A DNA stretch of 64,000 nucleotides from Selaginella tamariscina (taxonomy: Eukaryota > Streptophyta > Lycopodiopsida > Selaginellales > Selaginellaceae), in contig PUQB01000417.1 in NCBI GenBank assembly GCA_003024785.1, positions 139,950 through 203,949 of the forward strand, given 5' to 3'. The notes beneath the pieces were generated by a model. That model did not search any database. It had not been told where the DNA came from and worked only from the letters and a program-made list of their open reading frames with translations. Made by a program: the position numbers and the translations under genes. This document shows, in pieces, positions 277 through 63,661 of this stretch; positions within the stretch are counted from its first letter, which is position 1, and every line of letters starts with the position of its first letter.

Positions 277-400
277 GGGGCACTGCAAAATTTGAGCGCA
301 CGTCAACGAGCTTGACCAAGATTTGTGAATATTATTGAATATTCTGTTGTTCCGTACGATTTGTCTAGATATTCTTGAATATTCTGTACGGAAATTTTTT
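277..400 (+). repeat. Left terminal inverted repeat of the MULE
   Basis: The first ~40 bases (GGGGCA...TTTGAGCGCACGTCAACGAGC) pair with the inverted right end, and the similarity continues through GAATATTC and TTCCGTA blocks. The match is imperfect, as expected of an old element. Confidence 0.7.
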
Positions 401-443
401 GTACTGCCAAGTGTACAACAATTGGACCTTCCAAAATCTTCGA

Positions 444-461
444 GAATATTCTAGAATATTC
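444..461. promoter_or_regulatory. Heat-shock-element-like inverted GAA array
   Basis: Four alternating units GAA-nn-TTC-nn-GAA-nn-TTC lie without a mismatch just inside the left MULE end. Partial versions lie at 328-345 and 370-390, and at 8,955-9,000 in the right end. The pattern meets the consensus for heat shock factor binding, but it could equally be a subterminal binding site of the transposase or simply a GAATATTC repeat. No function is shown. Confidence 0.4.
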
Positions 462-952
462 TGGTGCGGCCGCATACAAAGTATGGTAGTATATTTCTGT
501 TGTATTTGAAAGAAATATACGTTAAATTACTTAAAAATATGCTAAGCATAAAATTACCATTAAAATTTATATTGAAAATTATAAGGTTGAAATAGCAAGT
601 ATAAAACTGAAGGTGTTTAAAAACAAACCAACACACTAAATAGATGGTGGAGGATGGAGGTTCCTTGGTAGCATCAATAAAGAACTCAGTTCACGAGATG
701 CAAGTGTATAACGTTGCAAATGCTTGACAACTCGAGGATCAGCTCCCAGTACACGCTTGTAAACAAAATACATATGTTTGCAAGGCACCCATTAACGACC
801 ATTGCAGAACTCCAAGCATGAACAAGATGGTGTGCTACAAATGACAACCCAAGCATATGTATGGTCGTTGTCACATACTCTGAAGCGAATGCATGTTGGA
901 GGATCAACCACGTCAACTTCTGCGACATATTGCTCCCAACGTCAGACATGCT

Positions 953-3641
953 TCAAAACTTACTGTTGTTTCTTAGACATCCCTGAAGGTGTTCTTGTTG
1001 CACGACCACTTGCAGGAACAGGAGGTCCACGAAATTGTGTAGGGGTGTTGAAAATCCAGTGACTCCAACAAGAACTGAAGGAACATGAGGTGTTGAAAAA
1101 CCTAGCACTCCTGCATGAGCTGAAGGAAGCCCAGCTAGCATAAAACCTGATCTTGCCAGATCATTGATCTCCACGCTATCAGCTTCGTGCCCACTTGAAC
1201 TTTCCAAACCGAGGTAGAAGCTGGCGGAGAAACAATAGTTGGTCTTCGATGTCTGCTGCAGAGCATGTTTGTTGGACAAAAATACATCATTTGTGAGCGA
1301 AAACATTCTTCACTAGTTTCTTTGTCGTTGTATTTGATCATTTTGAAAAAATAAGGAGCAGCCACTCGATTACCACTAGGACTGATCTTTGTGTCACAAG
1401 CACTCCACTGACCTCCTGAAGAGGGAAAGCCTACCAGACATTTCACAGAACTTCTTTCACCACATCTTCTAATTGCCCATTGTCCATGTGTAACATCTTG
1501 TTCTTCAACAGAACATATTCTTATGTTCTTCTGCAACAGAAAATCCAACCGTCGCTTCCATCTACACTGTGTTGGAATAACCTGTTCGCTATAGAAGATG
1601 TCGGTCGGTGGGATTGTTCAGCCTCTGACCCCATATTTCTTTGCACAGTGCGATGTTCAACATTCGTGGCAACCACAAAAGCAATATCCTGCATGCTTGA
1701 TGGAGCAACATCTTCAACTAAGTCGATGATAACCTTTGTTGTAGGTGTTGTTGAGTTAGTATTTGACATTCTTCTCTCAAACCTTGCTGAGAGCTCCTCT
1801 GAAGTGGCCCAGAACCACTATACCTTCCATCTCTAAAAGCCTTCACAAGAGCACATTGTCGCACTGATTCAGTCAGGTCGTGAATTGTAGCTTGGTACAA
1901 TGAAATGTATTTTGAATCTCTAGCCCTCCTCCATCTTCCGTGAACAGACTCGACTGGTTTGTCATGGGCACAACCCTTGTAGCATTCTTCGGCATGCTTT
2001 TAAGAATAACATTTGAAATATGATTCTTCTGTCTTTCCCACCATGAAAACCACGTCCACATAACTCCAACATCCTGCACATTTTCATTCCAAAAGCGGAA
2101 AAGATTATTTTCAATTTCTTCACGATTAGTTGTTGATGTGGCTGTTGGCCACGATCTCAAAAGTTGAAGATGTTGTTGTTGATGTTCAAGGGACCCACTT
2201 CCTTGTCACACGTTGTATGGCTTGTTCATAGTGAAAGATACAGCTTCGTTCACGTTGGCCATTAAAGAACACACTCCTGATTGCTTGCCAGATCGCTCCT
2301 GCTTCATCGGACATAAACCCAGCGAACTGCACATTGTAGATTCCCTTCTCGGAACAAACATCCAACATAGCACAAAAAAACTTCTCCACAGCTCCAGCCG
2401 TTTGTCTCTTCATGTCACCGTAAGCAATGGTGGATAGTCGACGCACACTATAAAATAATCAAAGAGTTAAGCAAACCACAAAAAGATAACATCTTACTTT
2501 GGGTCGTAAACGTGCAATGCTAAAGTGATCCACTTATCAACAACACGGTGTGTGTGATCAAGTAGAACCCAACTCTTCTGCAAAGGCCAAGAGGAGGTTG
2601 GCACATCCTTACGTAATCGATTCCAGAACTTGGCCCTGAAATCGTCATCTTAAAAACTAATGCCTGGTTGTCTGAACCATGAAAATTCATCCCAGGATAG
2701 TGAATGATGTGGATGAATGGATAGACAACCTTTGTTTCAGCTCCAACAATTCATCAATATTCTCTGGCATTTCAGCACAGTTCTCTTTGCAGACGCTACC
2801 CATTGACGAACTCTGCATCAAAGGTATTATCAAACAATGCTCAGCACAAAGTAAAACTCTAATTGTACCTTCGATTGTTTGATAACGGCTGCAAGTGATC
2901 CATGAGCTTATCCAACTTCCAGGCTCAGAATTATCTAATAGAAAACCAAAGATAGCATCTTTACATGCTGCCATTTCGATGACTCTTGGACTAGCTCTGG
3001 GAGTTCTTTCTGTTGCATTCTGGACTGCCAGATGCATTTCTTCTTTGCTTGATGCAGAAACACCATCACCCACTGGATGTGAATGTTTTCCCTGGTGGAT
3101 AAACAATCTAGTCTTGGTTATGTCGTCTTGGAAAATGCAGAACGCCACAACAGGACAAACTTCACGACACAATGGATTTTCTTTACAGAAAAAACATGTC
3201 AATCCTTTTGCCAGTTTGTCGATTGAAGGTGGGAAAACAATACATCCTTTCCATTTAGTGCAGTTCGGAAATCTTGCCTTAGAAATAGGGCAGTCCGGGT
3301 TGATACAGCAAAGGCTCCCAACACATACACCCTCGCTTGGAAATTCCAGTTGTTGGTTGTTCCTGCTGTCCAGGTATGTTCATCCTCTTTCCGATTCATT
3401 CCTTTGTATTTGTACTCGGAAGGGGAAGCTCAAAAATGACATCCCCATCATACACAACAGGCAATTCATTTGTATGAATGATCATGGAGCCCTCGATAAG
3501 AATTCTTCCCTTTTTGCAGGTATTAGAAGTGAAAAGGTCCTTCAACGTTGAGTATTCAGAGTCAGAAGCAACAACAAGCTTAAACAATGGTCCTCCATCC
3601 GGTAACAAAAACATATTCCGGATTATCCTTTCCCCCAGCAT
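953..3641 (-). pseudogene. MULE-type transposase, interrupted
   Basis: Read from right to left, the gene starts near 3,641 with a leader of about 80 residues. Next comes a Cys/His zinc-binding segment at about 2,950-3,340 (CCINPDC, CFFC, then HQGKHSH) that resembles the FLYWCH/GCM-type domain of MULE transposases. The catalytic core follows: a first acidic residue in VLLDHTHRVVDKW (about 2,500-2,560) and a second in FAGFMSDEAGAIWQAI, followed by CIFHYEQA (about 2,220-2,320), which fit the D, D and C-x2-H signature of the family. An intron with GTAAGA and TTATAG borders separates the two halves (about 2,448-2,495). The C-terminal part (about 1,135-2,160) is only loosely recognisable, and a third catalytic Glu was not placed with confidence. 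Several frame changes and one in-frame stop interrupt it. Confidence 0.75.
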
Positions 3642-4383
3642 CTTGGTCCTCGTTTATTTCGATATCTAAAGCAGATTGCCCATGAAGAAGTTTAAAAAGG
3701 CGAACACTTTGCCAATCAAAAATGCCAAAAAACTTTCTGATTTGATTAGTAGAACGATTCCAACACCATCTATCACAGGAACATCGTGATCCAAATTGCT
3801 GTAAATAATCTGGCCATTGTGCAAATAGTTACCACAAACGTAACAGAAAAACAACAGCATTACCTAATCATCTTTTGATAAATATCGGATATTACCATTC
3901 CAAGAATTCATAATCATGACTCAACGTGGGCAGATATTAATTCGAGGAAACGTATAAATCTTAGATGTTAATATAGGATAGCACTTCACGTAGAAATAGA
4001 GCAATCTTTATTGTCTTTTAAATAAATGTGTGTCTAATCTACATTCATCTGACATATTTATGACTTGTTTATATTCTGTTACTTTATTTACTATAATTAT
4101 ATAATTGAACCAGTATTTTATATAAATGTGTATTATTGTAGACATTATAAATACATATTTTTACACGAATATTTGTTTAATTATATAATAATATATTTTT
4201 TAACATACAAATCTTTACTTAAATATGTGTTTGTATTTGTATCCTTTGTATAGTACGTTATTTATCGCAAGTATTGTATATACTGTTGCATGGTTTGATT
4301 AAACACAGTTTTATGGTTAAGGGTTAAGGGTTAGATTTTAGGGTAAAGGTTTAGGGACGCCCACTCTTCTTTTCCATTCTCCA
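3642..4383. promoter_or_regulatory. Divergent promoter region inside the MULE
   Basis: This AT-rich spacer lies between the left-facing transposase and the right-facing ParB/methyltransferase-like gene. It has no convincing reading frame. At 4,311-4,357 it holds GGTTAAGGGTTAAGGG followed by TTTAGGG motifs, a telomere-like block resembling plant telo-boxes (AAACCCTAA), which are common near plant gene starts. The order of parts suggests a shared divergent promoter; this is inference. Confidence 0.4.
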
Positions 4384-7300
4384 TTGCCGAGAGGGCACTT
4401 TTGTTCTTCTTTTCGCGGCCGCTCTTGTTCTCCATTTGCGGCGACGGAGGCTAGTGTGAGCGTCAGGCACATGGCTGCAGGTAAAATCTTATGTATGTGT
4501 GTGCAAATTCAACAACAATTTCTGTGCATGTATTGTGAATTCAGTAAGATTTCTTCTATTCATGAACACACACAACACCACCCACCTCTCTGACGACATG
4601 AGTTTTGCCGATTTCGACAGGATTCCTGCAAATTTGGAATGTGTGTGTGGTGTGTGTTCGCACACACACACAAATAACATTTTATACACACAAAACATTA
4701 CACATCACACACAAGCAACATCACACATACACACACAAGCAACATCATACACATAACAACAAGCACATTATACACATACACAGACAACAACATTTTAACA
4801 CACGTACCACATTATGATATTATATATACAACATTAGACTTGTATACATGTGTGTGTGTGTGTGTCTATTATATATATATATATACATATTAAAAAGACT
4901 ATATATATATATATATATATTATATATTATAATATATATGTATAAGTATATGAATCTAAGACTTGTATATATGAGATGACTTTTTCGTCTGTATATACAT
5001 GTGAAGAGATATGAATATACCCATATTCTCTCTCTCTCACACAGACACATCACAAAACACAAACAACATTGCACACACACACACACAAGCAACATTACAC
5101 ACATACACAAGGAACATTATATAGTGAGCACACACACAAACAACATTACACATGTATAAATATGTGTGTGTGTGCGTGTGTCTATATATTGATAGGTATA
5201 CATATATAGTAAATGTGTGTCCATAAATTAAAAACTCACACACACACTCTTATCAGTTGTTGTAATTGCAGAATGAGGCAAAGGCAGAGTAAGAGACTGC
5301 GAGATAAATACAAGACTTTGACACTTCAAGAACATATCGTCCAAGAAGCTCTTGCAGATATGGCTCCAAAACCTCGTGGCAAGAAAGGAGGCCGAGGCGC
5401 CAAGCAACAACTGCAACGCGAAGAGATGATGCCGACGAACAATGAACCTGTGGATAGTTCGCAAGTCATTGATGAACATGCTGTGGTGAGTGAATGGATG
5501 CCTAGAAATAGGGAGATCGCAGGAAGCTCTGCAGAACACGGTAATGCAGAGGAAGTACCGGACATTGATCTTGGTAGTAAAATGTTCAATAAGAAGAGGA
5601 AACTGGATGCTCCTGAGGATGTTGCCGAATCATATGCAATTCCGGAACGGCTGACACTTGAGGCTCCATCCAAGCTTCTTCGGGATCTTGTTATTCGGTA
5701 TGACACGGATATTGACACATCGCTACAAGGACGAGACCACTACGTTCCAGTTGAGCTTGGAGCCTCCGCGTATCCCGGTTCACAGGTTGCTCCCACACCA
5801 ACGTTTGAGGAATGTCACTAAGGACGGCGTGAAAGACCTTGTTGGATGGATTAGAGCTGAAGGATTTTACCAGGAGACGTCGTGTTCACCTTATCTTTCG
5901 GACCACAGCTGAGTGCAGACGAACGCCGAAGTTGGAATGAGTCAGAAGCACAGGTCGATAAGAGTTTGAAGCGGATTTGCATAAGCCAGCATTTTCTGCG
6001 TGGTATCGATTTCTGAAAGATGCAAAGTTTCTGGTGTGGGATGGGAATCATCGTCGGGTTGCTTTGAACACTTTGCTTGCTGAAGAGCCAGGTTTGAAAT
6101 GGACTTTGCGTGTACGTGCAACACTCCATCCACACAGGGAGAAGAGACTAATCGCTGCTTGCAATCGGTTGAATGAGTAAGTGACTTGTTTGTTTCATTA
6201 TTTAAATACTAAATAAATGTTGTTTTGTTTTGCAGAGCAACTGCTCGTGTGGTTCCTACAACAATCATTCACACCTTGCAGTTCTTACGGAATTGTTGTG
6301 TGAAGTCTGCAGATCTTTCTACCGATCATGTTCTTGCGGGATGCCGGAGGAAGATAGAAAAGCTGTGGAAGTGTGGAGATCGAACAGAAAAGAAGACGTT
6401 TGGTACGAGTATCCAAAGACGACATTGGTGAAGATTTTTTGGGAGGTAATCTTTTCTTCTTCTTTTGATTTTTTTTGATTTTCGGTTTCTTTTGCAGAAT
6501 CAACTGAAGCGACAAATCGCTACAAAACTTGCGAAAAGAAACCAAACCAGACAGAATCTCAGATCCTCTCCAGCGTTTACAAGACATTCACAGTTCGGAT
6601 GAACAAATTCCTCACCATTGCTGATCCGGCGGTCGAAATTGGTTCAAGGCGATCACAGATATCACTATCAAACCATCAACGAAGCAAATAACTCTGGAGA
6701 AGCTTCAAATGCTCGAAGTCCCAGCTTCCTTCCAACGTCAAGGTTGATATCCTTGGAAGCTTGTGCACATTCAAGAACGTGGCGTTCTTGAGAAGCTGGT
6801 GAACATGACGGAGAAAGACAAGAAGGAAGGTGTCACCGGCTGGCCTGACAAGGACTTCATCAAGTTTTTGCACATCTTTACTTACTGGTTCCAGGTAATT
6901 TAGTATTTATATTTTTCATTTTTATCGTTTTATCGTGCCAGGTCGGGGAGCAGCTAAAGAGCTTTGGTCGAGCATGCAAGCAGTTACGTTGATGAGTTTA
7001 TGGCCTGGTATACGAAGATGCACAATGAAATCAAGTTGATATGTACCAGAGCATGCTCGAGAACAAGGAGTTCGGTGCGACAATTCCACCTTCTTGACTT
7101 TTAGATTTTTATCTATTTTTGCAGGTTTTTAAAATGGAAAATGATGCACTCCCTGAAATTTCAAGAGTGGATGGATGTTGCTAAGGATTCTAGCATGTGG
7201 AGCCGGTTGTTACGTGATATCAGTGATTACGAAGTGGAACACTGTCCTTTCTGGCTAGATTTCCTTCCTGGTGACTGTCCCAAATGAGAGATGGCCAGCT

Positions 7301-8606
7301 ATAAGATACACAAGGATGATCGGCGAGAGCTATTATGGAAGAACGATAGTGTCGCGAGGAAGCTCCATGTGAAGATGGATATGTATGCTAGATCGGCAGC
7401 AAGGTCAGCAAGGGACAGCTTCTTCTTCAGCCCCATCCTTCATCTCGGCTGGATTGGAAGAAGATGATATGTTGAGGATGGTGATGCCTGAGAAGGGAAA
7501 GAAGCTGGAAATCATTCATGCAGATTCAGAGAACCTTGCAGTCTAGTACTTCAAAGCCGGAAGGCCTTTTCCGCCGAGACTGAAGGAGCTTGAGGATTGG
7601 ATCGTGAGTCACAAGTCAAGTTGGACTATTCATGTGTTTGGTGCGAAGCCTCCACCGAAATGCATCCAGGGAGCTGTTGATCTCGTTGTCATCGACCTGC
7701 CTATCGGATGCATTGCTGAGGCAGGCGGGATGGTGGATCAATACACGAAGTTCTCGGATGCTTTGCTAAAGAACTTGGTGAACCTTGCTTTCGGGATACT
7801 AGACAAAGCTGGCCACGTGGTGGTGTTTGTGTTACCGGATGATGTTCCAGCTTTGAAGAACACTACAGAAACTTGCAAGCTAAAGTTTTGCAGATGAGTT
7901 ATGTACACACGACAAGTCCTGGGTACCGTTTCTCTAGAAAGGTAATTCTTCTTTTTGAGAATGTCATTTCTAATGTTCGTTTTTCAGGAAAGCATCATTG
8001 CCATGTGTATTTTTGGTTCCCCTACTCTAAAGTTGCGAAGAACAAGGAGATCCTGGACACTCGCTACACTCTTCTTTTGATGAGCCAGAAGATTTCCAAC
8101 TCCCATGGTACAATGTTGTTTGTTATTTCTCATTTTTTACATTGCAACTTTCAGGATTTCAATTGGCCCGAAATCTCCCAAGTTGTTTGCGATGCTAGTG
8201 GAGAAGCTCACAAAGCCTAGTGGAACTGTCGTGGATCTAACAATGGGAACCGATGCTAGTATTCTTGTAGCTTTTCACACAGGAGACATGGTTATGGAAT
8301 TGACATCAACAAGGATCTAGTTTTAGCAGCCAAAGATGTCTTCAGGAAGGTCATTCCAGGTGTTACATCAACTGAAGGTGGTGGGGATGATCAAGTCGTT
8401 TCCATGATTACTCCTTTTGATGAGTGGAAGAGGGCCATGGAAACAGAAGCACAGGATTTGCCTTTGGCTAGCGACAACGATGGAGACCAGGATCCCCTTC
8501 TCGAAACGACGAGGATGTTGTTATAGAGAAGTCCGTGGAGCACAACGACGAGTCATCAGATGAGTCAGCAAAAGAGAGATCAGACGAGTCATCAGATGAT
8601 GAGTGA
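4384..8606 (+). pseudogene. ParB-like / beta-class DNA methyltransferase-like gene carried by the MULE
   Basis: The clear coding part begins at 5,273 after a TTGCAG acceptor. A short upstream exon within 4,384-4,640 is likely but not placed; CA/TG repeats fill the gap. The parts in order are: a basic N-terminus (KPRGKKGGRG); a ParB/sulfiredoxin-like segment with WDGNHRRVAL at 6,035-6,065; a Lys-rich middle; a methyltransferase motif IV-like DLVVIDLPIG at 7,679-7,708; a motif I-like VVDLTMGTDAS at 8,228-8,260, followed by HGYGIDIN; and an acidic, Ser-rich tail (8,511-8,606). Motif IV before motif I is the order of beta-class N4/N6 DNA methyltransferases, and ParB-methyltransferase fusions are known in phages and bacterial mobile DNA. 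Canonical DPPY is DLPI here, so activity is doubtful. At least five GT-AG introns of 46-59 bp are visible (6,177-6,235; 6,446-6,497; 6,895-6,941; 7,942-7,987; 8,108-8,154). Several frame changes and stops interrupt it. Confidence 0.7.
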
Positions 8607-8929
8607 GATTTGTTTTGTCATTTCTTTAGTTTTAAACTTTAACATGTTTTCAATATTGTCCTACCAGACTACGCTAATCAGATGGTAGAGAAAATGGTTG
8701 AAGAGTTCGAAGTTTACGACAGACAGATTTTGGTGAAACGTTCACAACACGTAACAATGCATTCATTAACGACAAGGCACTGGCTGGTGGTGAGTCTTCA
8801 CGATTGAGTTATGTTTATATTGTAATTTTATTTAGTTTAATGCGGTATTTATATAAAAATATAATTATAAAAATATAAATATATATGTCAATTAACCCCC
8901 CAAATTTGTGAAACTTGACACCATTACCG
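8607..8929 (+). other. 3' region of the MULE cargo gene
   Basis: After the acidic tail, a GTGAGA donor-like site and a CTACCAG acceptor-like site frame another possible exon at about 8,669-8,806. It can be read as a short segment rich in E, V and K, but its frame does not join cleanly to the previous exon. The rest is AT-rich with no other signal. Confidence 0.3.
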
Positions 8930-9056
8930 TGCTGCCATGATTGCCCACCTGCCGCACTAGATATTCTTTATACGAAAATGAATATTCTATACGGAAGAGA
9001 ATATTTCACTATGACGGAAATCCGTATGCTCGGAAACTGCGCTCGAGAAAATGTCC
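8930..9056 (-). repeat. Right terminal inverted repeat of the MULE
   Basis: Read on the reverse strand from 9,056 this begins GGACATTTTCTCGAGCGCAG and continues with TCCGAGC, TTCCGTA and GAATATTC blocks in the same order as the left end. The match is imperfect. Confidence 0.7.
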
Positions 9057-9065
9057 ATTATTTTA
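9057..9065. repeat. 9-bp target site duplication, right
   Basis: ATTATTTTA is identical to 268-276. It is followed by TATAGTCAG, the same context that follows the single copy at 24,972-24,980. Confidence 0.88.
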
Positions 9066-9148: not shown

Positions 9149-10120
9149 TTACTGGAGCAACAACGCTTTCAGGCGATTCCATTGTTCCAGAAGCAAATCA
9201 AGTTCAACACGGGCAGAGCGATAGTCCAACGCGTTAAGCTTCTTCATCACGGGCTCATCCGCACAATCGTAATCTGGCTTAGTCCCCAAGAAGGCGAGCC
9301 TGCTCTCCACCAGCTGCCTCAAACATGCCTTGCTTGACGCACTCGTAAACTCTTCGTTGCTTAACAAAGTCCCAAGCGAATCTGAAGCCCGCCACTTGAC
9401 AAGCATCTCAGTAAGAGCTCCCACCATTTCTACCTTCTCTGACACCACCATTTTCACAAACTCCATTTCCTCATCCTCCAACTCTTTTTGCTCCCCAGCA
9501 ACTGCAGCCTCTGCTAAACAACTCAATGCCTTGTGATACAGCTTGTTAATATCCCCATCAGGTATTAGTCCATCCCTAAACGGATCAAAGTAACGATGCC
9601 TCCACATGTTTCATTGCAATCAGCCACACTCTGCCTTCTAGCACACAAGAGAAACACCCAAACTTGACCACGCCTTATTTCAGCCACATTAAAGTCAGAC
9701 GGCATCTTATTCACCACCTTGTTGATTACAGCCACTGCACATTCATGGAACTTCATTCGCTGCAACTGAATTGCCAAAGGAACAAAATCAGAAGCAACAT
9801 ATCCCACTTCACCCATTTGCGGCTATCAATTAAATCATCAAAGCCGCAAGCATCAAGCCCATACGTGCCCAATGCCTTGGCAAGTGCTTTGATAAATCGG
9901 CATTTTCCATGCCACGAAGGTCGATTTTCTTAGCCATAGACAACGCCTCCTCTCGTAATCCCAGCTCTACACAAAGGTTAAGCAGCTTGCCAAAGCCACT
10001 TGTCCGCCTTTTATTGAGACTCGCACCTGCAAGCCACATCTTCCAACCCTCATGCTCAACATTCTTGTACTTACGTTTGAGCTCCACCAAGGCTATGGCT
10101 ATTCCCATGGTTGAAGAACC

Positions 10121-10161
<41 letters not shown>

Positions 10162-11374
10162 GGACTTGCTCTTTGGCCAAACCACCAACACCCAACACGG
10201 TACCAGTAATCCGTCAGCCACCCTCATTCCCAGGAATCCGGTATATTTCTCTTCGTCAGGAACATTGCTAAAGAGAATATACTCTCTCTGCCCCATTTAC
10301 TCGCTTGTAATTGCCACTATGTCATGTCGCAATGTGAACCTAGCGTTACTTGGAACCAACTGGCTTATCGTCGAATGCAACCAATTGCCCACTGTATACT
10401 CAAGTTCAATATCATCGCCCCCATATCTCTTCATCATTAACTTGATGGTGCTTAGTGAGGATGCCAAAGATGGAGCTCCAAGTCGCAGCCGCAGTTCTTT
10501 AGAAGCTCAGCCATCACTCGATCGTGCCCCTTCAACCCAGCAAACGAGAGGCTCTTTTGCGAGTACCCATGTGCCAAGGGAATGGCAAGCCTCTTGGGAC
10601 CAACAGCCTTGTCGAAGTTGTCCTCCATGTCCTTAACCCAAGGCAGAAGTTGTGATTGAACGAGCTTGAGTGCATTGAGTAAGTACGGAAGACTTGCATC
10701 TGGAACGGAAACCGGAAGTTTCTCCGTATTGGTCCTCAAAAGATTGAAAGTTAGGCACAACCTAGTTCCCTCTGTCACTTCCAAGAGCTCTGCTCGCAAT
10801 CCGCAAAGAATGCGATCCAGAAGCATTTACTGTTGCTGCCCTCGCCTGAAAAATCGAACGTCTCGGTGATATCAAGATGCTTAACCACGAGAGAACCACC
10901 CTGGTAACCTGTTTGCGTCGGCAACTGGATAATCATGGTCGCAAACATGTCGTCGTCTTTCTCAGTGTCCCTGTGAGACTTGAAATGTCCACCTTGCTCG
11001 TACATGAGAAGCTTGTAGAGCTTGACTTGAAGGCCGAGTGCCATACCCATTGTAGACAGTGCTTGGGAAGCGATCGAGTGTGCTACCTCGGTGAGGAAAT
11101 TGTGGGGGCAAGAAACCCTTGCTGCATCGATCTGCCAAGCTTGGCGGACGCTCCTGTCCACCAGCGTCTCTGATCCCAGGCCATAGGGCGCCTGCGTCGC
11201 TTCTGCTCTAATCCTGGATGTGTCATCTTGGCGACAAGGCAGCGGGATGCTGCCCAATCCATCGATGCTCAAACTCTTGGGAAGATCAAGTGCAGAAATC
11301 TCATCCCCCTCCGCAAACTGCATAGAATATGAGAATCCGTAGAGCGCCTCAAGCAACTTTCCAAACTTCACCAT
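9149..11374 (-). pseudogene. 2-oxoglutarate/Fe(II) dioxygenase-like gene, copy 1 (broken)
   Basis: The N-terminal 199 residues read cleanly from an ATG at 11,374. They include LYKLLMYEQGGHFKSHRDTE (about 10,960-11,020), the first iron-binding His-x-Asp of the prolyl-4-hydroxylase-like fold, followed by FATMIIQLPT and GGSLVVKH. The second iron ligand should lie in a DCEH segment. Compared with copy 2, a 7-base loss falls exactly there (near 10,817) and throws the rest out of frame. The downstream parts persist in other frames: TRLCLTFNLL, a middle region broken by a TA microsatellite, and a C-terminal helical stretch (9,149-9,607). The ancestral protein would be roughly 700-750 residues. The substrate is unknown. 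The family is recognised from the fold motifs only. Confidence 0.75.
10125..10160. repeat. (TA)n microsatellite inside the oxygenase pseudogene
   Basis: A pure TA run interrupts a conserved stretch. Copy 2 has only ATGACTTCAA at the corresponding place (about 26,025-26,038), so the expansion arose after the duplication. Confidence 0.85.
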
Positions 11375-11634
11375 GTCAAAACCTTTTCCGGAGTTTTCTT
11401 TTCTTCCTCTAGGTGGTTCACTTAACTGGTACGGTAAAGTTCAAAAATAAAAAAATTCGTTTACTCAGGTAAATATGGTTGTATTGGCTCACGATCTTAT
11501 ATGCGTTAATAGAACCTGATCATTAACATATAAAATTAAATCAAATGAAACAACCACTAAGTGCCAATGTCAACATTTTTATTAACGAGTAACCAAGGGC
11601 TGAGAATAAATTTTATATTAAAAAGATAATGTGT
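11375..11634. other. Upstream flank of oxygenase copy 1
   Basis: Non-coding flank shared with 27,142-27,212 plus 31,631-31,780 of copy 2, for example the GGGCTGAGAATAAATTTTATATT block. It shows that the gypsy and copia elements entered nearly the same place in the two copies. No promoter motif stands out. Confidence 0.6.
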
Positions 11635-11794: not shown

Positions 11795-14700
11795 CATCCC
11801 CTCCTCTCGGAAGGTGTAAGTTGGTTAGGATTCTCTTGTAAACGGGCCCGAATCTGGAGGAACATTAGGAAGAGGCACTGGTGGATCTGTAAGCGGCATA
11901 ACTTATTCCCGTTGTACAAAATGCTTCAACCGTTGTACATGTACAATCTCCGGAGGATCGGGTTGAATGTCGTGCCGAACCTCATAAACCTGTACCCTAC
12001 TTGCCGTAGCACTCAATACGGTCCTTTCCACTGAGGAAGGAGACTTTAGCTAAACCACGTACCGTAAGCTTGGGAAAACGAACCAACACCAGTTCATCAA
12101 CCTTGTACTCCGCAGGAGGACGATGATGCGAGTTGTAGCGTTGTTGTTGTCCTACTTGTACGCGGCCCAAGTGTTCTGCTGACTCCGCACGAACCAATGG
12201 AAGAATGCTCGTCAGATACCGATCCCACGACCTAGCATCAGCAGCTCGGTAACCGAGAAGGCAAACCCAACTCCGTTGGCAACACCGGGTCATGACCATA
12301 CAAAGCTTATATGGGGAAGTACCAATGGAACTTTGAACTCCAGTGACATAAGCATATCGGAGAGACGGCAGATAACCATCCCAATCGAATGTTGAAAGTT
12401 CACATACTTGCGATCATCCCCTTGAAGGTTCTGACGAGCCGTTCCACTAAACCATCTGTCTGAGGATGATAAGCACTTGTGAAAGTGTGGCGTATCCCTA
12501 ATCGAGATGTAAAACATGAAATGCCTCAGCCATAAATGCGGGACCATTATCCGAGAGAATTCGCTCCGGACAAGAATGCTGAAACACGACCCGATTCAGG
12601 AGAAACTGACCAACAGCAGAAGCAGTCGCACTAGCAAGAGCACCAACTTCTACCCAACGAGTTAGGTAATCAGAAGCAATAATAACGTACTCGTTACCAG
12701 CAGTTGACCGCGGAAAAGGTCCCATCAAATCAAATGCCACCAATTCAAACGGACGAGAAACTGCAATTGACTCCAACCGTCCTTCCGAAGCACATGGGGG
12801 AGTATTGCGAGCTTGGCACCACACACAGCTACGCACATACCGAATCACATCTCCTCGCAACTCCGGCCAATAGAAAGATCTGCGCAGCTTCTCCATCACC
12901 CGACGATGTCCCATGTGCCCGCCAAGAATAGGAGAGTCATGGTAAGCATGGAGGAAGCGTGGAATGAAGATTGAAGGCACCACCAACCGCAAAGGATCAT
13001 CTGGATCAGTCCCCACAAAATAAAGAAGGTCATCCTGAAGGCGATACTGTGAATGTAAATGCCTGAAAGGCAAGTCATCAGCAAGTGATGCAGGATTCTC
13101 AAACCCATCACGAAGCCTTCGAATCCACGGCTCAACCTTTTGAGCTTCCCGAACCTCATCCAAAGACGGCAAATCTAACTCTGCATTCTGCGGACACTGA
13201 ACGTCAAGCACAGCAACTGCTGATGGTACGGAATCTTCATCCAAAAAGTCCACTGAAGCTGGAACAACTGGTTCCTCTGGGGCAACAGAAGAGAGAGAAG
13301 GTGGAAGAGGAGCCCGAGAAAGAGCATCAGCATCAGCCATGGAACTCCTGGACGATGAACAACTTCAAAGTCGTAAATTTGAAGTTTCAAGGCCCACCGA
13401 GCAGTACGCCCAATCAAATTCTTCGCTTCAACAACGAAGTGACTGCTGCATGATCACCTTCCAACAACGTCCGCGAACCATGCAAGTAGGCATGGAGCTT
13501 CTCAAAACCCCAAACTGCTGCTAGACACTCCTTTTTGTCGTGGAGTAATTCACCTCTGCTGGCTGCAATGTACGGCTGATGTACGCAATGGGATGTCGTT
13601 GGCCAGGAACACTCGTACTCTCCTGCATCAATACCCCGAGGCCGATGTCAGAAGCATCTACACGCAAGATGAAAGGACGGGTGTAATCCGGGTACGCCAA
13701 AACTGGAGGAGTCGTCAACAACTCTTTGAGATCTGCAAATGCCTGCTTGCAATCCTTAGACCAAACAAAAGAAGTCATTGACGATTTCAACAACGCGCAA
13801 CGGTGCAGTACGATCTGAAAGATGATCCACAAAACGACCCAGATATTGTACCTTGCCAAGAAAGCGTTGCACATCATTCACACACTTTGGCGTAGGGAAC
13901 TTCAAAACTGCAACTAGTTTGTCAGGATCGACTTGCAAACCTTCACGTGAAATGCGATAACCCAGATAAGTGGTGTCCTTTGATCCAAACACACACTTAG
14001 ATGGCTTCAACTTCAAACCAACTTCCCGCAGTCGATCCAAAACCTTACGTACATCACCGACATGCTCCTCCCACGTTCCATCCGAATGGATCAAAACATC
14101 ATCGATGAAATCAGCAGTCACCTCCGGCATGTCGCAAAGAACCTCGTCCATCATACGCTGGAAAGTTGCTGGAGCATTGCTCAAACCGAAAGGCATCAAG
14201 AACTCGTACAGGCCAAATGGTGTCGAAAAGCAGTCTTGGGAATGTCCATGTCAGCCATCGGAACTTGCCAATATCCAGATGCGAGATCTAACTTGGTGAA
14301 CCAACGGCTCCCCAGTCGATCCAAAAGGTCTGCAGTATGAGGAAGTGGGTACACATCTGAGACGGTTACCTCATTTAACGGGCGATAGTCAATGCAGAAT
14401 CGAACGCTCCCATCAGGCTTCGTCACAAGGTGAGGTTCGCACGCCCAAGGACTTCGAGATTTCCGGATAACACCCTTCTCCAACATCTCTTTGACATTCG
14501 CTCGTAAGATCTTGAGCTCCTTTGGTGACCGACGCCGAACAGGTACCTTGATTGGCCTAGCATCTCCAGTTGGAATAGGGTGGCGTGTCGCAATCTTGGC
14601 CCCAGATGACAAGTCGAAGTTGAAAAGATCAGCATACTCCTTCTTGAGTTGATCAACAACTACAGCACGACGATCATCTGATGGATCCAGAAGAAAAAGG

Positions 14701-16285
14701 AAGAGCATGAAGGGAAAATGGTTGGAAATAGGGTGAGACAAAAGTGATAGCAGAGGTGGAAAGATGGACGAAGTGGAATAGAAGTAAGAGGAATGGAAGA
14801 AAGACGAGGGAGAGTCAAACAAGGGGGAGACTTTTCAAAGTCACACTTGGCATGATTGCGAGTTAACCAATCCATACCAAGAATAAGGTGAAAAGCTTGA
14901 CTCGGCACCACCGCAAAGATTGAAGCTCGAGCTCAATCATCCACACGAACAACAATGTCCACTTCATCCCGCGAACAAGCATGAGTATGTCCGTTGCCGT
15001 ACAGAATGAAGACTGGTTCTACCGCACGACGCAAATGAAGGCTGCAACGTGTAGCAACAGATTGAGAAAAAGAGGACAAACTGAACCTGTATCCACCAAC
15101 ACTGAAAGGAAAACAGGACGTGGCGTGTGATTAAACGAGCTTGAAAAGTGAAAACCGGATGATTTGGTGCCGAGTGAACCCCTTGATGATACTCCCGAAA
15201 GAAAGATGGAGGGGTCACTAATTTATTCGCACGAGGACCCTCCTCTACTCGTGCGATTCGTCGTTTCCCGGAAGATCCACCGCATCACAACCTTCCACTG
15301 CAGCAGCACCAACCGGACGTTGTTGACGCCATGGCCTCCATCCTGGAAATGGGGGACGCCAATCGGGAAACCGTTGACAGCGCCGATACGTGTGTCCAAC
15401 CTCATCACACGCCCAACAAAACTGCACGTCCACGTCCTCGTCCACGGGCCCCACCTTGTGCTGGTACACGAGCGGCAACAGCCTCAACCTCCATCGGAGC
15501 AGGTCCATCCCCAACATGAAGTGGAAGAGAGCACGTGAAGGCGCAAGTGGGAGAGGTGACGACTCATATCGTTGTGCCAGCCTCAAAGCATCGTCAAGAG
15601 TCACTGGAGCTAGTGCATGCACAAGCCCCACAAGGTCTTGACGAAGTGCTGGCCACTGACATGTTAGGTTCTGCACGCAGCAAAAGGCTTCGAAAGCGAA
15701 CACCAAACTGCACCGACTCAGATGGCTCCTGACGAATACGATGCAACTGCTGAAAAGCATCATCACAGTCGTCCGCATGCCCAAATGCACGTTTGAAGAT
15801 CTCTGGAAGAATATTCCAATCTCCACGAGTTGCAACGTCCAACCATTGTACCACTGCAACGCCGTCCCTTGAAGACAAGTAGGAAACTCGCAAACACTGA
15901 GCACCGTCCCACGAATGATATGTGGCAACCACAGTGAAGTGGTCAAACCAATGGTACACATCATCTCCAGGATTTCCGCGAAAGAAATCCGGCGGACACG
16001 GGGGTTTGCAACATGAGTAGAGGAGTACCCTGGACTGTGAATGCTGCCATCAACTGAGAATGATTGTTCAGTTGCACACGCATGGCATCCAACAACTGCA
16101 TGAGTAACTGCTCCACAGACAAGGGATTTGCCTGTTGTGGATTCATGGATGAAAAAAGACAAAATCACAAGAAAGGAATAGATCTAGACAATGGAAAGCT
16201 AGACCTAAGAAGACAAAGAAAATTAATAAAAAGACACAAATCCGAGCACTGTAGGGACAATTAGAGGTGCCCCTGCCTCCACCAA

Positions 16286-27397: not shown

Positions 27398-30300
27398 TGT
27401 ATCAAGGTGAGAATAACATCAATTCAAGGGTCATAAGTGCAGTTTGTGGAACGTTATATCCTCAAGAACGGTTAGTCAACGATAGACGACTTGAGAACAT
27501 GACGACAAGCCACAAAATCAATCCCAATTCCGGTCTTTGATGGGCACACGACTTTGAGAACTGGTAGCGGGAAATCTTATTTGTTATGATGTGTGACAAT
27601 TTGTCTACGAATTGCAGATGGCAGTGAGGTGAAGCCTTAAACGAACCCAGAAGATTGGCAAGTTCAACATGACAAAGCGTTGTCACTAATAGGGATTGGG
27701 CTTGGTAGGCATCACCACCATCACCTGGATCTAAGCAAGTCAGCTTCTGAGAATTGGACAGAGTTGAAGGCGATTTTTGGCAAGCAGGCACAGAAGGAGA
27801 GATTTGTGGTATCGTTGAAAGGAAAGTTTTTTAAGCTCGAGTTTGGTCCCATAGAACTAACATCGTGTTCCTTAGAAGAATGAAGTTCCATTCTTTGCTC
27901 AGCTCATTGCTTTTGGACAAACCATTTCAGATATAAACAAAACCATGGTGCTTCTTGGGGCCTTGACCAGGCCAGACCACATGACTCTCAAGATGACACT
28001 GGAGAATACATCAGGGATGTCTTATCAGGAGATTTAGGCTGCAGTCATCAACCATGATCCAAATCCTCAAGTAGACATAACCAGCGGTATGGTGGGACAT
28101 TCTCAAGTCCTCTTCACTCCGAGCCAATTCAAGAAGAAAACCAACTTCAATCCGCAGTTAGTGAGGAGTGGGAGCAGTGCTTCACATTATAAAGGTAACA
28201 ATAGTACAAATAGGTAGGACATTCCACCGTCAAAGCTTGGACCATGCAACTATTGCAAGAAGATGGGGGCATTTTGCCAAGAACTATCTGGACAAGGCAG
28301 CAGGAAAACCACAAGCAAGCAAATTGAAGAATAAGGGCAATCAACAGATGGCCCTCATGGTACCACTAACCTCAGTCCTTTCGAGGAAGAAAATATCCTC
28401 TAGTTGGACATTTGTGCCAATATTCACTGTACTCTAGTATTTATCGCTTTTAAGGCATATCAGGCAATCCAATGGGAGAAGGAGTCTACATGGGAGATCA
28501 TCGACCATTGAGCATTGTTGGGAGTCAGGACAGTAGAGATTCAACTCCAGAGCAGTGAGTTGTCGACCTTCGACAAGTTCACGGTCAGGAAGATAGCAGA
28601 TGCCGATTGGAAAGGTCAGATCGATAAGGACGAGATCACTTACACTGACAAGCAAGGAACCATAGTAGCACATGGCAGAGACATGCTGGGAATTATAGGC
28701 TAGATGCCACATTGGTGATACCTAAAGAAGAAAATCTTCTCCACAACTCTTCAACAATGGCATCAATGATTGGGAATGCAAACGAGGTAGCAATTCAAGT
28801 TGTAGCTCGGACCAGGACCAGCTTTTAGACTTTCAAGTACTTGGAGACAACCTTGAGTTCTATGAGGCATGCTATTTAGAAGACAACATAGGCAGCCGTT
28901 CCCCAGTAAGGGCATCTACTGTAAGACCACTCAACCTTTAGTGGACCAATGCATGTTCGGTCATTGACAGAAGGAGGTATTTTGTGATGTTTATAGATGA
29001 TTATACTCGTTACACAGTGGTAAATTCTTGATTAACAATGTTTCGACTATATAAGATTGCTGTAGAAAACGTGTGGCAGAATTTGAGGAATCCGCATACT
29101 TAGAAGTGATAAAGGTGGGGAGTATCAAGCAAGTGTGCTCAAGAAGTTGTGTGAAGAATCTGGGAGCAGCAGTTTACAGCCCCATACTCAGCTCAGCAAA
29201 ATGGAGTGGCGGAGAGAATGAATCGGACTCTAGTGGAGACGACAAGATGCATGCTTATGCATGCAGGAACACCGCTCAATTATTGGGCAGAGGCCTTAAG
29301 CACACCAGCTACATCCGGAATCGACTTCCTGCAAGTAGCATTGGTGGAGAAGTTCCATTCACCGGTGGACTGGGAAGCGAGTCAGTTTGAAACACCTCGT
29401 GTGTTTGGGTGCCTGGCATATGCACACGTTCCGGACGAACTCCGTCGTAAGTTGGAGCAGAAGAGTAACATGTATATCATGGTGGGATATTGCCATGAGA
29501 GCAAGGCATATAGGCTTTACGATCCCACTCACCAGAAAATTGTTGTGAGCCGAGACGTTAAGTTTAATGAGGATATGCTTTACAAGGATAGGTTTACAGT
29601 TCAAGTTAATCCGACAGGCCTATATTCTTGAGGAAGAGCAGCCACAGGATCCACACCCTGATCCAGGGCAGATTGGGGAAGATCTAGGATCTGAGTGAGG
29701 AGGAGCACGAAAGCGAGGAGGAGATTCCTCCACTTCAGCAAGCACCTCCGCAGGTACCTAATCCAGACCGACCCATCAACACAATCACGAGAAGTGGGAG
29801 AATTAGCTACAAGTCACGAAAGGCAAGAGAAGCTGATGAGTCTTCAACCTCCTTCTTCACCTCCAGGTATCCTCGGGAGCCCCGGACAGTGCATGAGGCG
29901 ATGCAATCAAGGAGGCAGCAGAATGCTGCCATGGAGGAGGAATATGCTTCTCTCCTCAAGAACCAGGTTTGGGAGCTTGTTACTCTTCCCCAAGTCGCAC
30001 TGTAAGTACCAAGTGGCTATTCAAGAAGAAGCTGGATGCACATGGCAAGTACTCCGATACAAGGCTGGTTTGTTGCACGAGGATTCTCACAAATCGCTGG
30101 AGTTGACTTCTATGAGACGTATTCACCAGTGGTGAAGATGGCTTCCATTCGTCTCATTCTTCGGATAGCAACTAGCTTGAATCTGGAGGTTCACCAGCTT
30201 GATGTAAAGACTGCTTTCCTGTATGGAGAGCTGAAGGAGGAAGTCTACACTACACAGCCTGAGGGATTCGTGGTGCAAGGACAAGAACACAACGTTTGTC

Positions 30301-31432
30301 GTCTTCGAAAGGCCCTGTATGGCTTGAAGCAGTCACCACGAGCCTGGTATGATCATGTAGACAGGTTTCTCACCTCCATCGGTTTCCAAAGTCCACTGCA
30401 GATGGAAATATATGTCTTTCAAGGAGTGGACTTTGCATACCTGGCATTATACGTTGATGACAACATCATGGCCGCAAGCCAGTTTCGGCTTGTTCAATTC
30501 TTTGAACACCATTTCGATCTCAGTTTGAGATCTCGCAGCCGGCGACCTATGCTATTGTTTGGGCATTCAGGTGTTCCGGGATAGAGCTGCAGGGGTGATT
30601 CAGCTATCTCAAGCACACTATGTGCAAGAGATACTTCAGAAGTACATGGCCGACAGCAACCCGTCAGCACCCCCATGGACGTACACACACAACTTTCAAA
30701 AGATCAACAGCCGACGTCTGAGGAGGAGAGATGGAGTCATAGGCATAGTTGGTTGTTTGTTATATCTAGCCATTTCCACTCGACCAGACTTGGCTTTTGC
30801 AGTCGGAGTGGTTTCCAGGTTTGTAGAGAATCCAGGAGAGGCTCATTGGACAGCAGTCAAACGTATCTTACGATACTTGCGAGGCACAGTCGGGTTTTGT
30901 CTCACATATTCAGCTAGTGGGAGCTCTACAGGAGATCACATGGTAATGGATCTAGTGGGTTTCACAGATTCAGATTGGGCAGGAAACAGGGAGACTAGGA
31001 AGTCCACTTCAGGATATGTGTTTCTTCTGGATGATGGGCTTATCAGTTGGATGAGCAGACTGCAGCGAGTGATTGCACTCTCCTCGATGGAGGCCGAGTA
31101 CATTTCAGCAACAGAGGCGGCCAAGGAAGCAACATGGTTAATGAAGTTGCTGAAGGACATGGGAATTTCATTTCCAAGGCCGATCACAATTTACTGTGAC
31201 AGCACTAGTGCCATAGCTACTTCAGAGAACCCCAGACATCATGACAAAGTCAAGCATGTCGATGTGAAGTACCACTTCATCCGACAAGAGGTTCGAGCCG
31301 GGAACATCAAACTCAAGCATGTGTCTAGTATCGAGATGGTTGCAGATATTATGACCAAGGCCTTGAGCAGGGATAGTTTCCAACGACACCGGTCTCGAAT
31401 GACCATCTTGAACTCTCACGGCTGAGTGGGAG

Positions 31433-39537: not shown

Positions 39538-39841
39538 AATCACAATTAATTAATTAAGTTAATGATTTTAGATATTTAGAAAATATAAATTAAAACAAAA
39601 ACCTTCAGGTTAATGCATTTCACATATATAAATTTCTTAAATATATGTTTCTTCATTGGTTTTTAATATTTGCCAATTAATTAAGTTTTAATTAATTATT
39701 ACTAATACAATAATCGTTCCGTAAAGTAATTAATTATACTGTTGCTATAAACCAAGTATGTGTCCACGTTTAGGGCAGGGATGGCGTTTATAAAAAAGCA
39801 TATTCAGATGAAATAGGATATTCTCTGGATAACAGAGGAAG

Positions 39842-39873
39842 AACCCTAAATGTAAGGTTTTTCGCTAGGGTTC
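39842..39873 (+). promoter_or_regulatory. Telo-box-like motifs before SYF1
   Basis: AACCCTAAA at 39,842-39,850 and CTAGGGTTC at 39,865-39,873 lie within 46 bases of the start codon. Such telo-boxes are common near starts of plant housekeeping genes, which suits a splicing factor. Confidence 0.45.
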
Positions 39874-39887
39874 ATAGCGCGGAAGCA

Positions 39888-61833: not shown

Positions 61834-63661
61834 ATGATGGCCAGCACAGCCACTACTGGCGGTCTGTCATACAGTCGTTTTAGTAGTTCACAGAGCAAAA
61901 AGAACAAGGTTCCCACTGGCTATGGAAAGAGGCAGTGCATCAAATGCCAGGATACCGAGAAGAAGAGCTTCTCAATGGACCGGAGGGAGTTCGTTCTTAC
62001 CTCTTCCTTTGGCACCTTACTTGGGAGCGCCCAGCAGGCGTCGGCGGCCCCTGTGGAGCTCAACGACTTCAGTTCGTGTGCCCCGGCGGAGGTGCCCACC
62101 GGGGGAACAACCAACTGCTGTCCCCCGGTAACCTCAACTATAACGGACTTTGTTTACAACACAAGATTGCCTCCCCGGACAAGACAGGCGGCTCACCTGG
62201 TAAGCTCCGACTACATTGCAAAGTACCAGCGTGCGTACGATCTCATGAGGGCTCTCCCCGCGACCCGCGGAGCTTCACAAGCCAAGCCAACATCCACTGC
62301 GCCTACTGTAATGGTGCGTATAAAGTCGCAAACAGTAACAACACTCTCCAGATCCACGACAGCTGGCTCTTCTTCCCCTGGCACCGGCTCTACCTCTACT
62401 TCCACGAGCGTATACTCGGTAAGCTACTCAACGATGACACCTTTGCACTGCCATATTGGAACTGGGATAACCAGACGTCGAAGGGAAACATCATGCCCCG
62501 ATCTATCTCAGAAACTCAAGTTCCCTTTACGATGTCAATCGTGACCCAGACCATTTCCCAAACAAATTAGTCGACCTGAATTACGATGGAACGGTAAGTT
62601 TCGTGTGCTTGCATGGTGTGAAGGTCTCTTACTACGTTTTTGATACAGGACCCGTCTACTCCGCCCTCAGCCTCAACCCAGATAGCCGAGAACAACGCAG
62701 TTATGTACCAGCAGATTGTGAGCGGTGCACGTACTGCTAGCCTGTTCCTCGGACCGGCATACAGAGCAGGGGATGCAACTACTCCAGGAGGTGGCACCAT
62801 GGAGAACGTCCCACACGGACCGGTTCACATATGGACCGGTAACAGTGAGAATCCAGCCCGTGAAGACATGGGTACATTCTACTCTGCTGCGAGGGACCCG
62901 ATCTTCTTCGCCCACCACTCTAACATCGACAGGATATGGGGCGTGTGGAAGACAATACCGGGAGGACGGCGGCGGGACTTCACGGACTCGGACTGGCTTA
63001 ATGCAAAGTTCCTTTTCTACGATGAGAATGCCAAGTTGGTGAGGGCCAGGGTCCGTGATGCATTAGAAACTAAGCAACTGGGTTACACTTATGTGGACAA
63101 CGGGAACCCATGGATCAACGCGAGGCCGTCCATAGTCGCCAGTGCGAGGAGCCTCGTCTCTCTGAACGACGCACCGGAAGCTGCCCGCGCGGATATATTC
63201 GACGACATCGAGGAGTTTGGGGAGGCAGTCGAAGGTAAGCTGAGGAAGCTCGATGGTAAGTTTAAGAGCAAGGTTAAGAGGCCGATTGCGAAGAAGCTTG
63301 AGAAGCTGAAGAGGAAGATTTTGGGCCGTGACGATGATCTCGAGGAGGTTTTGGTGATCCAAGGAGTGGAGCTCGACTGTGGAAAGATAACTAAGTTTGA
63401 TGTGTATATTAACTTCCCGGATGCGGATGAGTCCACCAACTATAACGTGGTGGATTTGTGGGGAGTTTTGTTAATGTCCCGCATTTTCCAGTTGAGGCGC
63501 AGAGTATGAAGAAGATTACTGACGTGAGATTGGGAATTGGAGATACTCTGCAGCAGCTTGGGGTTAAGGATGACGACGATATCGTGGTTACCTTGGTCCC
63601 TAAGGGTCTTGGGAAACAGAACCCTGTGGCGTTTAAGGGGTTTAAGATTGAGTACGAGTGA
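61834..63661 (+). CDS. PPO: Polyphenol oxidase (catechol oxidase), copy 2; three frame breaks
   Basis: Paralogue of 48,742-50,590 in the opposite orientation. The start at 61,834 (MMAST) opens a Ser-rich plastid-type leader, GKRQCIKC, then the twin-arginine lumen signal [17 protein letters not shown] and QASAAP. The CuA ligands are in HCAYC, IHDSW and PWHR; the Cys of HCAYC would form the thioether bridge. The CuB ligands are in PHGPVHIW and [23 protein letters not shown] domain and GFKIEYE close the protein at 63,661. The intron is 55 bp (62,594-62,648), after LNYDGT. Three apparent one-base losses (near 62,258, 62,500 and 63,455), each in or beside a C, G or T run, separate the frames. Otherwise the whole protein of about 591 residues is present at the family's usual length. 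Confidence 0.87.

Follow-up and report, generated by a model that had tools for sequence, protein, structure and literature searches.

A divergent methyltransferase-like accessory gene in Mutator-like transposons of Selaginella tamariscina

We analyzed a stretch of 64 kb from the genome of the lycophyte Selaginella tamariscina (C746:139950-203949, hereafter the window), in which an initial annotation had proposed an accessory gene, combining a ParB-like segment with a DNA methyltransferase, inside a Mutator-like element (MULE). Pairing with the transposase, introns shared with a distant homolog and a ratio of nonsynonymous to synonymous substitution rates (dN/dS) of 0.27 lead us to conclude that this gene is a conserved second gene of a MULE clade and no captured fragment. 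Most likely, at a probability of roughly 45%, the encoded protein would bind sites in its own element and mark or occupy them, countering host silencing either by methylation or by occupancy.

Linkage to the transposase and purifying selection

The assembly used for genome searches comprises 1391 contigs and 300.7 Mb. We distinguish three families, A (the window copy and the intact reference copy L017, 8984 bp), B (L028) and C (L046 and L052), where L-names denote loci cut from the genome. A 169-amino-acid (aa) transposase query yielded 150 scored matches of 1496 candidates, corresponding to 104 places of family A and 46 of family B, and a single methyltransferase exon used as query yielded 150 scored matches of 200 candidates. 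Among the 104 family A transposases in the list, a divergent accessory gene lies within 9.5 kb of 85, at a distance of 4.9-6.5 kb in 83 cases; chance would give about 0.2 pairs. Conversely, 85 of 130 merged methyltransferase places of family A are paired with a listed transposase; some of the unpaired places are fragments, and others, such as the window copy itself, have a transposase that is absent from the list. In family B, 35 of the 46 listed transposases have a divergent accessory gene beside them among the methyltransferase matches listed. Homologs are therefore not confined to single-copy host genes away from transposon ends, the case in which the initial annotation would have given way to simple gene capture, and the pairing in both families (85/104 and 35/46) upholds its view of the gene as part of the transposon.

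Substitutions were compared for a single sequence pair, the window copy and L017, with codons near gaps excluded. Over 914 codons of the accessory gene, dS was 0.058 and dN 0.0155 (ratio 0.27), with 33 synonymous changes at 590 sites against 33 nonsynonymous changes at 2146 sites (Fisher P = 3e-7). Therefore, the accessory gene has been under purifying selection, by this one-pair test no weaker than that on the transposase, whose main exon gave a dN/dS of 0.52 (P = 0.023); the two genes did not differ significantly (P = 0.10).

Intact copies and the encoded protein

Twelve copies of family A were fetched at full length, of which 11 were aligned and one, with its left end missing, was left out. 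Identity over aligned bases was 99.2-99.99% in the 45 pairs without L021 (at least 99.5% in 37 of them) and 96.6-97.4% in pairs with L021. Family A has therefore moved recently. Among the 150 scored genome matches to the methyltransferase exon, 50 share one score, with 92% identity and no stop codon. The accessory gene is fully open in seven of the 11 aligned copies (1042 aa; 1041 in one) and broken in the other four.

In L017 the gene has six introns of 47-59 nucleotides (nt), five of them GT-AG and one GC-AG. A complete homolog of 1011 aa is found in L028 of family B, on the strand opposite the transposase and 28% identical to the family A protein, and each of its five introns (52-60 nt) matches a family A intron in position and phase. 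The initial annotation had taken the introns to mean a long stay in the nucleus, and five intron positions common to proteins that are 28% identical bear this out. The GC-AG intron of family A (L017 element, after 6926) corresponds in position to a GT-AG intron of family B.

The C-terminal part of the intact family A protein matches the Pfam family N6_N4_Mtase (PF01555) with 34.2 bits and the family B protein with 36.5 bits, both above the cut-off of 26.7 bits. Both also match PHROG 67, a phage DNA methyltransferase family (E 2e-10 at residues 638-966 in A; E 2.6e-11 at residues 919-986 in B). Motif IV precedes motif I, the order of beta-class enzymes, in agreement with the class originally assigned. 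Motif I, which binds S-adenosylmethionine (SAM), is intact in family A (DLTVGTGAS). The canonical motif IV is (D/N/S)PP(Y/F/W), to which neither DPPT in A, DLPN in B nor DLPI in the window copy conforms, and the sequence thus makes catalysis by the accessory protein doubtful. In a profile search of the PDB, the methyltransferase part matched MboIIA and further beta-class enzymes weakly (best E 0.026). Among phage records, the family B protein had 373 matches at E up to 1, and in the 20 of these listed the best E was 9e-4 and all 20 lay in the methyltransferase half; the stitched methyltransferase pieces of the window copy had one match (E 10) and the stitched ParB piece none. Three scans of viral contigs for direct relatives confirmed none.

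The N-terminal third contains the motif WDGNHR (residues 257-262 of the family A protein), which is common to families A, B and C. At this segment the intact A protein has a DndB match below the cut-off, while the family B protein has no DndB match, the ParBc profile matched neither A, B nor the pieces of the window copy, and a PDB search with the ParB part gave no significant match. Since the DGNHR motif and the sub-cut-off DndB match are its sole support, "ParB-like" is a motif-level label: the motif named by the initial annotation stands, the expected ParBc profile does not. Likewise, of the profile matches foreseen, N6_N4_Mtase was found above its cut-off in intact copies, ParBc was not found and the exons of the window copy stayed below threshold.

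Sister families B and C

The 46 places of family B are 49% identical to family A over the 169-aa transposase query, a value that holds for this stretch only; over the two longest exons, identity between the A and B transposases is 42% and 38%. The accessory protein is more diverged between the two families (28% overall). The family B methyltransferase exon occurs at at least 150 places (1049 candidates), and 147 of the 150 listed are identical over 108 aa. The low end of family B is common to 12 of 12 loci, at 1739-1747 of L028, and no target duplication was matched by eye for this copy. A family B methyltransferase exon also lies at C746:131033-131356, about 8.6 kb before the start of the window.

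A DNA pattern for DGNHR codons unused by A and B occurs at 362 sites in the genome (reversed control, 0). Ten loci cut from these sites form the third family, C, whose identity to B in individual stretches ranges over 30-79% and which occurs at at least 150 places (1437 candidates). The genome-wide search for N6_N4_Mtase gave 150 scored matches of 739 candidates, all 150 above the cut-off. At eight or more places, compared by eye, such a match follows a linker or a DGNHR site of family C on the same strand (C113:193422, C113:326737, C14:22266, C14:499976, C111:33311, C50:53506, C565:331665 and C586:478833); it stands about 1.1 kb beyond the linker, as placed by profile matches.

The best N6_N4_Mtase match among those listed (C1293:521691-521984, 41.6 bits) covers more of the profile and may belong to another family. 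Further families are possible at C450:296406, C280:291374, C493:292271, C504:194341, C158:67131 and C492:359911, where DGNHR is spelled in other ways. Very long open frames (3141, 941 and 934 aa) surround accessory pieces at C913:36623, C550:293410 and C816:74829; these are possibly masked letters or intron-less copies.

The element and accessory gene in the window

Positions 277-9056 of the window (8.78 kb) read as a decayed MULE, a dead relic of family A. Its target-site duplication of 9 bp, the ends that it shares with other copies and the minus-strand transposase corroborate that the accessory gene lies inside such an element and diverges from the transposase. The identical 9-mer ATTATTTTA stands at 268-276 and 9057-9065, and its length lies within the 8-11 bp of target-site duplications of Mutator-like elements. 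Because this AT-rich 9-mer has nine copies across the window, the duplication alone is modest evidence for the element ends; the ends also agree with other genomic copies. The right end is common to all 12 fetched family A copies and the left end to 11 of the 12, and the window copy lacks five terminal right-end bases (AACCC) that the fetched copies have. Target duplications in these 12 copies are exact over 9 bp in six and measure 8, 7, 6 and 6 bp in four; one copy has none, and in one the left end is missing.

The putative terminal inverted repeats consist of about 25 imperfect bases that share TCGAGCGCAG at the same offset, and subterminal DNA rich in GAATATTC is common to both ends; no long terminal inverted repeat was found at the ends of the window element. 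In the left terminal region (277-465), GAATATTC palindromes at 337, 377, 444 and 454 accompany the imperfect inverted repeat, and the right terminal region (8955-9056) contains its inverted repeat together with GAATATTC at 8980. A search for a further copy of the element inside the window found none.

The main transposase exon (639-2458, minus strand) is decayed, with part of a DDE domain and a SWIM-like finger (CxC...CxH) near 690-800, and is 95.3% identical to an open 614-aa frame of L017. Upstream transposase exons, read from the reading frames, occupy 2497-3828 (minus strand; 108 aa and 337 aa for the counterparts in L017) and include a Cys/His-rich, zinc-finger-like stretch at 2690-3379 for which no Pfam match was found. 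The MULE profile (PF10551, cut-off 27.6 bits) matched the stitched transposase pieces of the window (E 5e-4) and the L017 transposase stretch (E 0.017), both under the cut-off, and SWIM matched the window pieces with E 0.65. As neither the 614-aa frame of L017 alone nor the transposase stretch of family B matched the MULE profile, the superfamily call rests on the sub-cut-off family A match together with the 9-bp duplications and the fingers.

The accessory gene runs from 5273 to 8606 on the plus strand, in seven exons with very short introns, as suits a lycophyte such as Selaginella, and its start codon (5273-5275) and stop codon (8604-8606) fall where the initial annotation had put the gene. 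That annotation had extended it upstream to about 4384, and an untranslated exon followed by a long intron from there is plausible: 4384-5272 on the plus strand would comprise a 5' untranslated exon, a long repeat-rich intron and the divergent promoter region, with a putative donor after ATGGCTGCAG near 4481 and the acceptor TTGCAG directly before the start codon, as far as sequence alone can tell. Exon 1 (5273-6176) encodes the N terminus and the DGNHR (ParB/DndB-like) segment, for which DndB gave E 3.9e-4 on 5962-6180, below the cut-off. Exon 2 (6236-6445) follows an intron of 59 nt (6177-6235) and has junctions like those of L017, and exon 3 (6498-6894), a linker, follows an intron of 52 nt (6446-6497). 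Exon 4 (6942-7098) was placed by comparison with L017 and its end is approximate, the exon end and the intron donor being deleted in the window copy. Exon 5 (7125-7941) encodes linker and the N-terminal half of the methyltransferase with motif IV (DLPI; DPPT in L017), exon 6 spans 7988-8107 after an intron of 46 nt (7942-7987), and exon 7 (8155-8606) carries motifs X and I, an acidic tail and the stop codon. All seven exons are on the plus strand.

Against the intact relative, the accessory gene of the window shows 27 deletion gaps and two insertions. Exon borders set 1-3 bases off in this comparison account for at least two of the gaps and one of the insertions; the misplaced borders were the start and stop of the gene, the 3' end of exon 3 and the 5' end of exon 5. 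Exon 4 was drawn there with a wrong donor, its true end being deleted. Single exon translations score weakly because the gene is broken in so many places. The exon 7 stitched piece matched N6_N4_Mtase with E 1e-3, and the stitched window pieces matched it with E 2.4e-4 and DndB with E 1.8e-3, all below the cut-offs; four single methyltransferase pieces of the window copy had no Pfam match. The NCBIfam DndB model scored far below its cut-off on the stitched ParB piece (E 0.022), and NCBIfam gave no match on the stitched methyltransferase piece.

Candidate target sites

Between its divergent genes, family B carries a tandem array with a period of about 39 bp and eight perfect palindromes CCCAGTCGGCATGCCGACTGGG (L028, 5400-5709), three of which extend to 28 bp; degenerate copies lie beyond the array. 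L028 has 15 palindromes of at least 12 bp (shuffle mean 2.7, maximum 7). In this family AGTCGGCA is part of a 22-bp palindrome. The exact 22-mer occurs at 1092 genomic sites (reversed control, none), and a comparison by eye put every one of the sites listed (nine contigs) 2.6-3.2 kb upstream of a methyltransferase exon on the family B list. Outside the main array, the non-coding DNA of L028 contains eight AGTCGGC, five of them beside the array, against 0.06 in shuffles (maximum 2 in 1000 shuffles). The upstream repeats of family C, about 137 bp long, are quite unlike those of B, yet they contain the half-site AGTCGGCA, which numbers 12 in L052, 13 in L046 and 5 to 13 across the ten loci. AGTCGGCA is absent from L017 (AGTCGGC occurs once in its 8984 bp) and from the 64-kb window.

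Family A has a small cluster of imperfect inverted repeats at 4425-4525 of the L017 element, and its palindromes of at least 10 bp number 16 (shuffle mean 10.7, maximum 19). Another motif, GAATATTC, occurs eight times in the two 250-bp ends of L017 (Markov mean 0.026, maximum 2 in 2000). Eight of the 11 aligned family A copies have five GAATATTC on the left and three on the right, and none of the 11 has an internal one. Because it is common to A and B, being found near both ends of L028, the sole B copy read, GAATATTC may belong to the transposase.

Proposed function and alternatives

In the mechanism that we favor, the accessory protein would recognize short repeated sites in its own element, candidates being the AGTCGGCA palindromes or repeats upstream of the gene in B and C and a different site in A. 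It would then mark the DNA there, with N6-methyladenine (6mA) or N4-methylcytosine (4mC), or merely occupy the sites, and host silencing would be kept off the element so that the transposase and the accessory gene stay expressed. This would be the part played by VANC in the VANDAL MULEs of Arabidopsis, here taken by a bacterial-type protein, and the position of the AGTCGGCA repeats upstream of the gene in B and C suggests such self-recognition. A fuller version, in which a land-plant transposon has an epigenetic identity system made of a bacterial-type protein, co-diverging AGTCGGCA arrays, host-foreign 6mA or 4mC on its own promoter, escape and bursts to hundreds of copies, we put forward tentatively and consider rather unlikely in this complete form.

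Several points weigh against the favored mechanism. We infer binding, methylation and anti-silencing from sequence. Motif IV departs from the canonical form in both families, so catalysis may be lost. Plant silencing runs through 5-methylcytosine (5mC), and the proposal leaves unexplained how 6mA or 4mC would block it. The ParB profile is missing from the N-terminal part, family A has neither an array like that of B nor an overall excess of palindromes, and the AGTCGGCA sites might be read by the transposase or a host factor, or have no reader at all. Faster divergence of the accessory protein would fit a changing target; the contrast is one of 28% against about 40% identity, not 49%, which makes this a minor and weakened argument.

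Given motif IV, a dead enzyme stays a serious rival, if an improbable one. Such a protein would be a DNA-binding reader or transcription factor that binds the promoter array and either activates both genes or drives off silencing factors, with SAM structural only or unused. In its favor, neither family has the aromatic residue of motif IV, motif I being retained, the first proline of motif IV is leucine in B and the window copy, and the palindrome array sits between the two divergent genes of B; motif I and the domain order are nevertheless conserved, both proteins score above the DNA methylase cut-off and motif IV varies among methyltransferases. We think it unlikely that the protein is instead a transposition cofactor, which would bind or methylate the element ends and time or license transposition with no role in silencing. 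The confinement of GAATATTC palindromes to the ends in A, and their presence near both ends of one B copy, would suit a cofactor, as does MuDR, whose integration apparently depends on its second gene, mudrB, in the available text of one study (PMC6446971). Against this, AGTCGGCA, the candidate site of highest density, lies in the promoter region and not at the ends, and GAATATTC is common to A and B although their accessory proteins are 28% alike, a pattern in keeping with the somewhat better-conserved transposase as its reader.

That the gene is a captured host fragment of a Pack-MULE, of no use to the element, is very improbable. MULEs often capture host genes, according to the accessible part of one study (PMC13317346), and the window copy is broken, but the gene is intact in seven of 11 copies and under purifying selection, and a homolog with the same introns occurs in a family whose transposase is about 40% identical, with pairing at 85/104 and 35/46 listed transposases. 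Linkage, shared introns and dN/dS rule out a simple recent capture, the search for a host homolog having covered the genome matches listed. Least credible is a chance resemblance or an assembly artefact: single exons of the window copy fall below threshold, and 52 of the 85 deletions over the window element are of one base and could partly be sequencing error, whereas intact relatives exceed the Pfam cut-off and at least 100 places are listed per family. For the family as such, these intact relatives and many genomic places exclude chance or artefact.

If the self-binding, anti-silencing role is true, ParB-methyltransferase accessory genes, in print for algal transposons, would also serve a great transposon group of land plants, and would have been inherited through deep splits of MULEs with a visible candidate target. 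With so many near-identical copies, one native long-read run could show self-marking by 6mA or 4mC, a question that bears on the disputed 6mA and 4mC of plants and on how transposons outrun silencing.

Surroundings of the element

Beside the element lies a 2OG-Fe(II) oxygenase-like gene on the minus strand (10778-11440, perhaps 9149-11440; PF13640 E 4.9e-5, just below the cut-off), followed by remains of a Ty3/Gypsy-type retrotransposon (12501-16183, minus strand) with integrase zinc finger and core and a reverse transcriptase, in profile searches that covered the part up to 15248. A Copia-type reverse transcriptase occupies 30006-31422 on the plus strand (RVT_2 on 30006-30581, E 1.2e-42). A probable host gene, for a pre-mRNA splicing factor like SYF1/CRNKL1, is represented by exons at 39774-42346 (plus strand), and a polyphenol oxidase-like exon with tyrosinase and PPO1 domains lies at 62622-63506 (plus strand). 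No tRNA or Rfam family was found in the 64-kb window.

Comparison with known systems

The initial annotation had regarded an accessory gene of this kind as undescribed; in general terms this no longer holds, as ParB-methyltransferase genes have been published for algal transposons. The available part of the Ectocarpus study describes Sola1-1_Ec32 with an accessory gene of 1104 aa that combines ParB, a label applied by its authors, with an N4/N6-methyltransferase, and proposes that proteins of this kind bind the transposon that encodes them and mark it (PMC12477816). Going by the same text, our gene is alike in its domain pair (with ParB at motif level here), in its position on the strand opposite the transposase and in length (1104 vs 1042 and 1011 aa), and unlike in being carried by a MULE in a lycophyte as opposed to Sola1 in a brown alga, a likeness drawn from description and not from sequence comparison (PMC12477816). 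That study also cites cases from green and red algae, as references 50 and 51 (number 51 being Petroll and others 2025). Our literature search for a MULE or Selaginella precedent, for 6mA and for transposon methyltransferases found none, the two works behind the Ectocarpus study lying outside it. Reference 50, from its DOI, is presumably Iyer and others 2011.

Phage and bacterial beta-class methyltransferases (PF01555, PHROG 67) share with the accessory protein the order of motif IV before X and I; they differ from it in that it has a long linker, plant-type introns and a non-canonical motif IV. The viral Mariner elements Mariner-2_PGv and Mariner-1_OLpv are DNA transposons with a DNA methyltransferase-like gene as well, but their carriers are giant viruses, their methyltransferase domains are others and they have an extra endonuclease gene, as far as the accessible text goes (PMC3627910). 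Transposon-borne epigenetic enzymes are also represented by the TET/JBP dioxygenase genes of fungal DNA transposons, which are thought to counter silencing, and by the SET genes of oomycete Harbinger and MuDR elements, though in the portion available these are other enzymes in other hosts (PMC12730594). The mudrB gene of maize MuDR is likewise the second gene of a MULE, and differs in that its function is described as unknown in the excerpted source (PMC6446971).

VANC offers a parallel in arrangement. According to the accessible parts of the literature, VANC proteins bind short motifs that are amplified as tandem repeats in the non-coding DNA of their own element, where they bring about a loss of silencing, and the motif is believed to change in concert with the protein (PMC5735166; PMC10398659). 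VANC of the VANDAL elements is thus also a MULE accessory gene whose short motifs are tandemly amplified in the element's non-coding DNA, but the available text mentions no methyltransferase, and its motifs share one orientation whereas those described here are palindromic or inverted (PMC5735166). The genes presented here share this outline, a MULE accessory protein more diverged than the transposase, with a clade-specific tandem motif upstream, as a likeness of arrangement only. The kind of gene is known from algae; what is added here is a MULE as its carrier, a lycophyte as its host, families with shared introns, and motif arrays.

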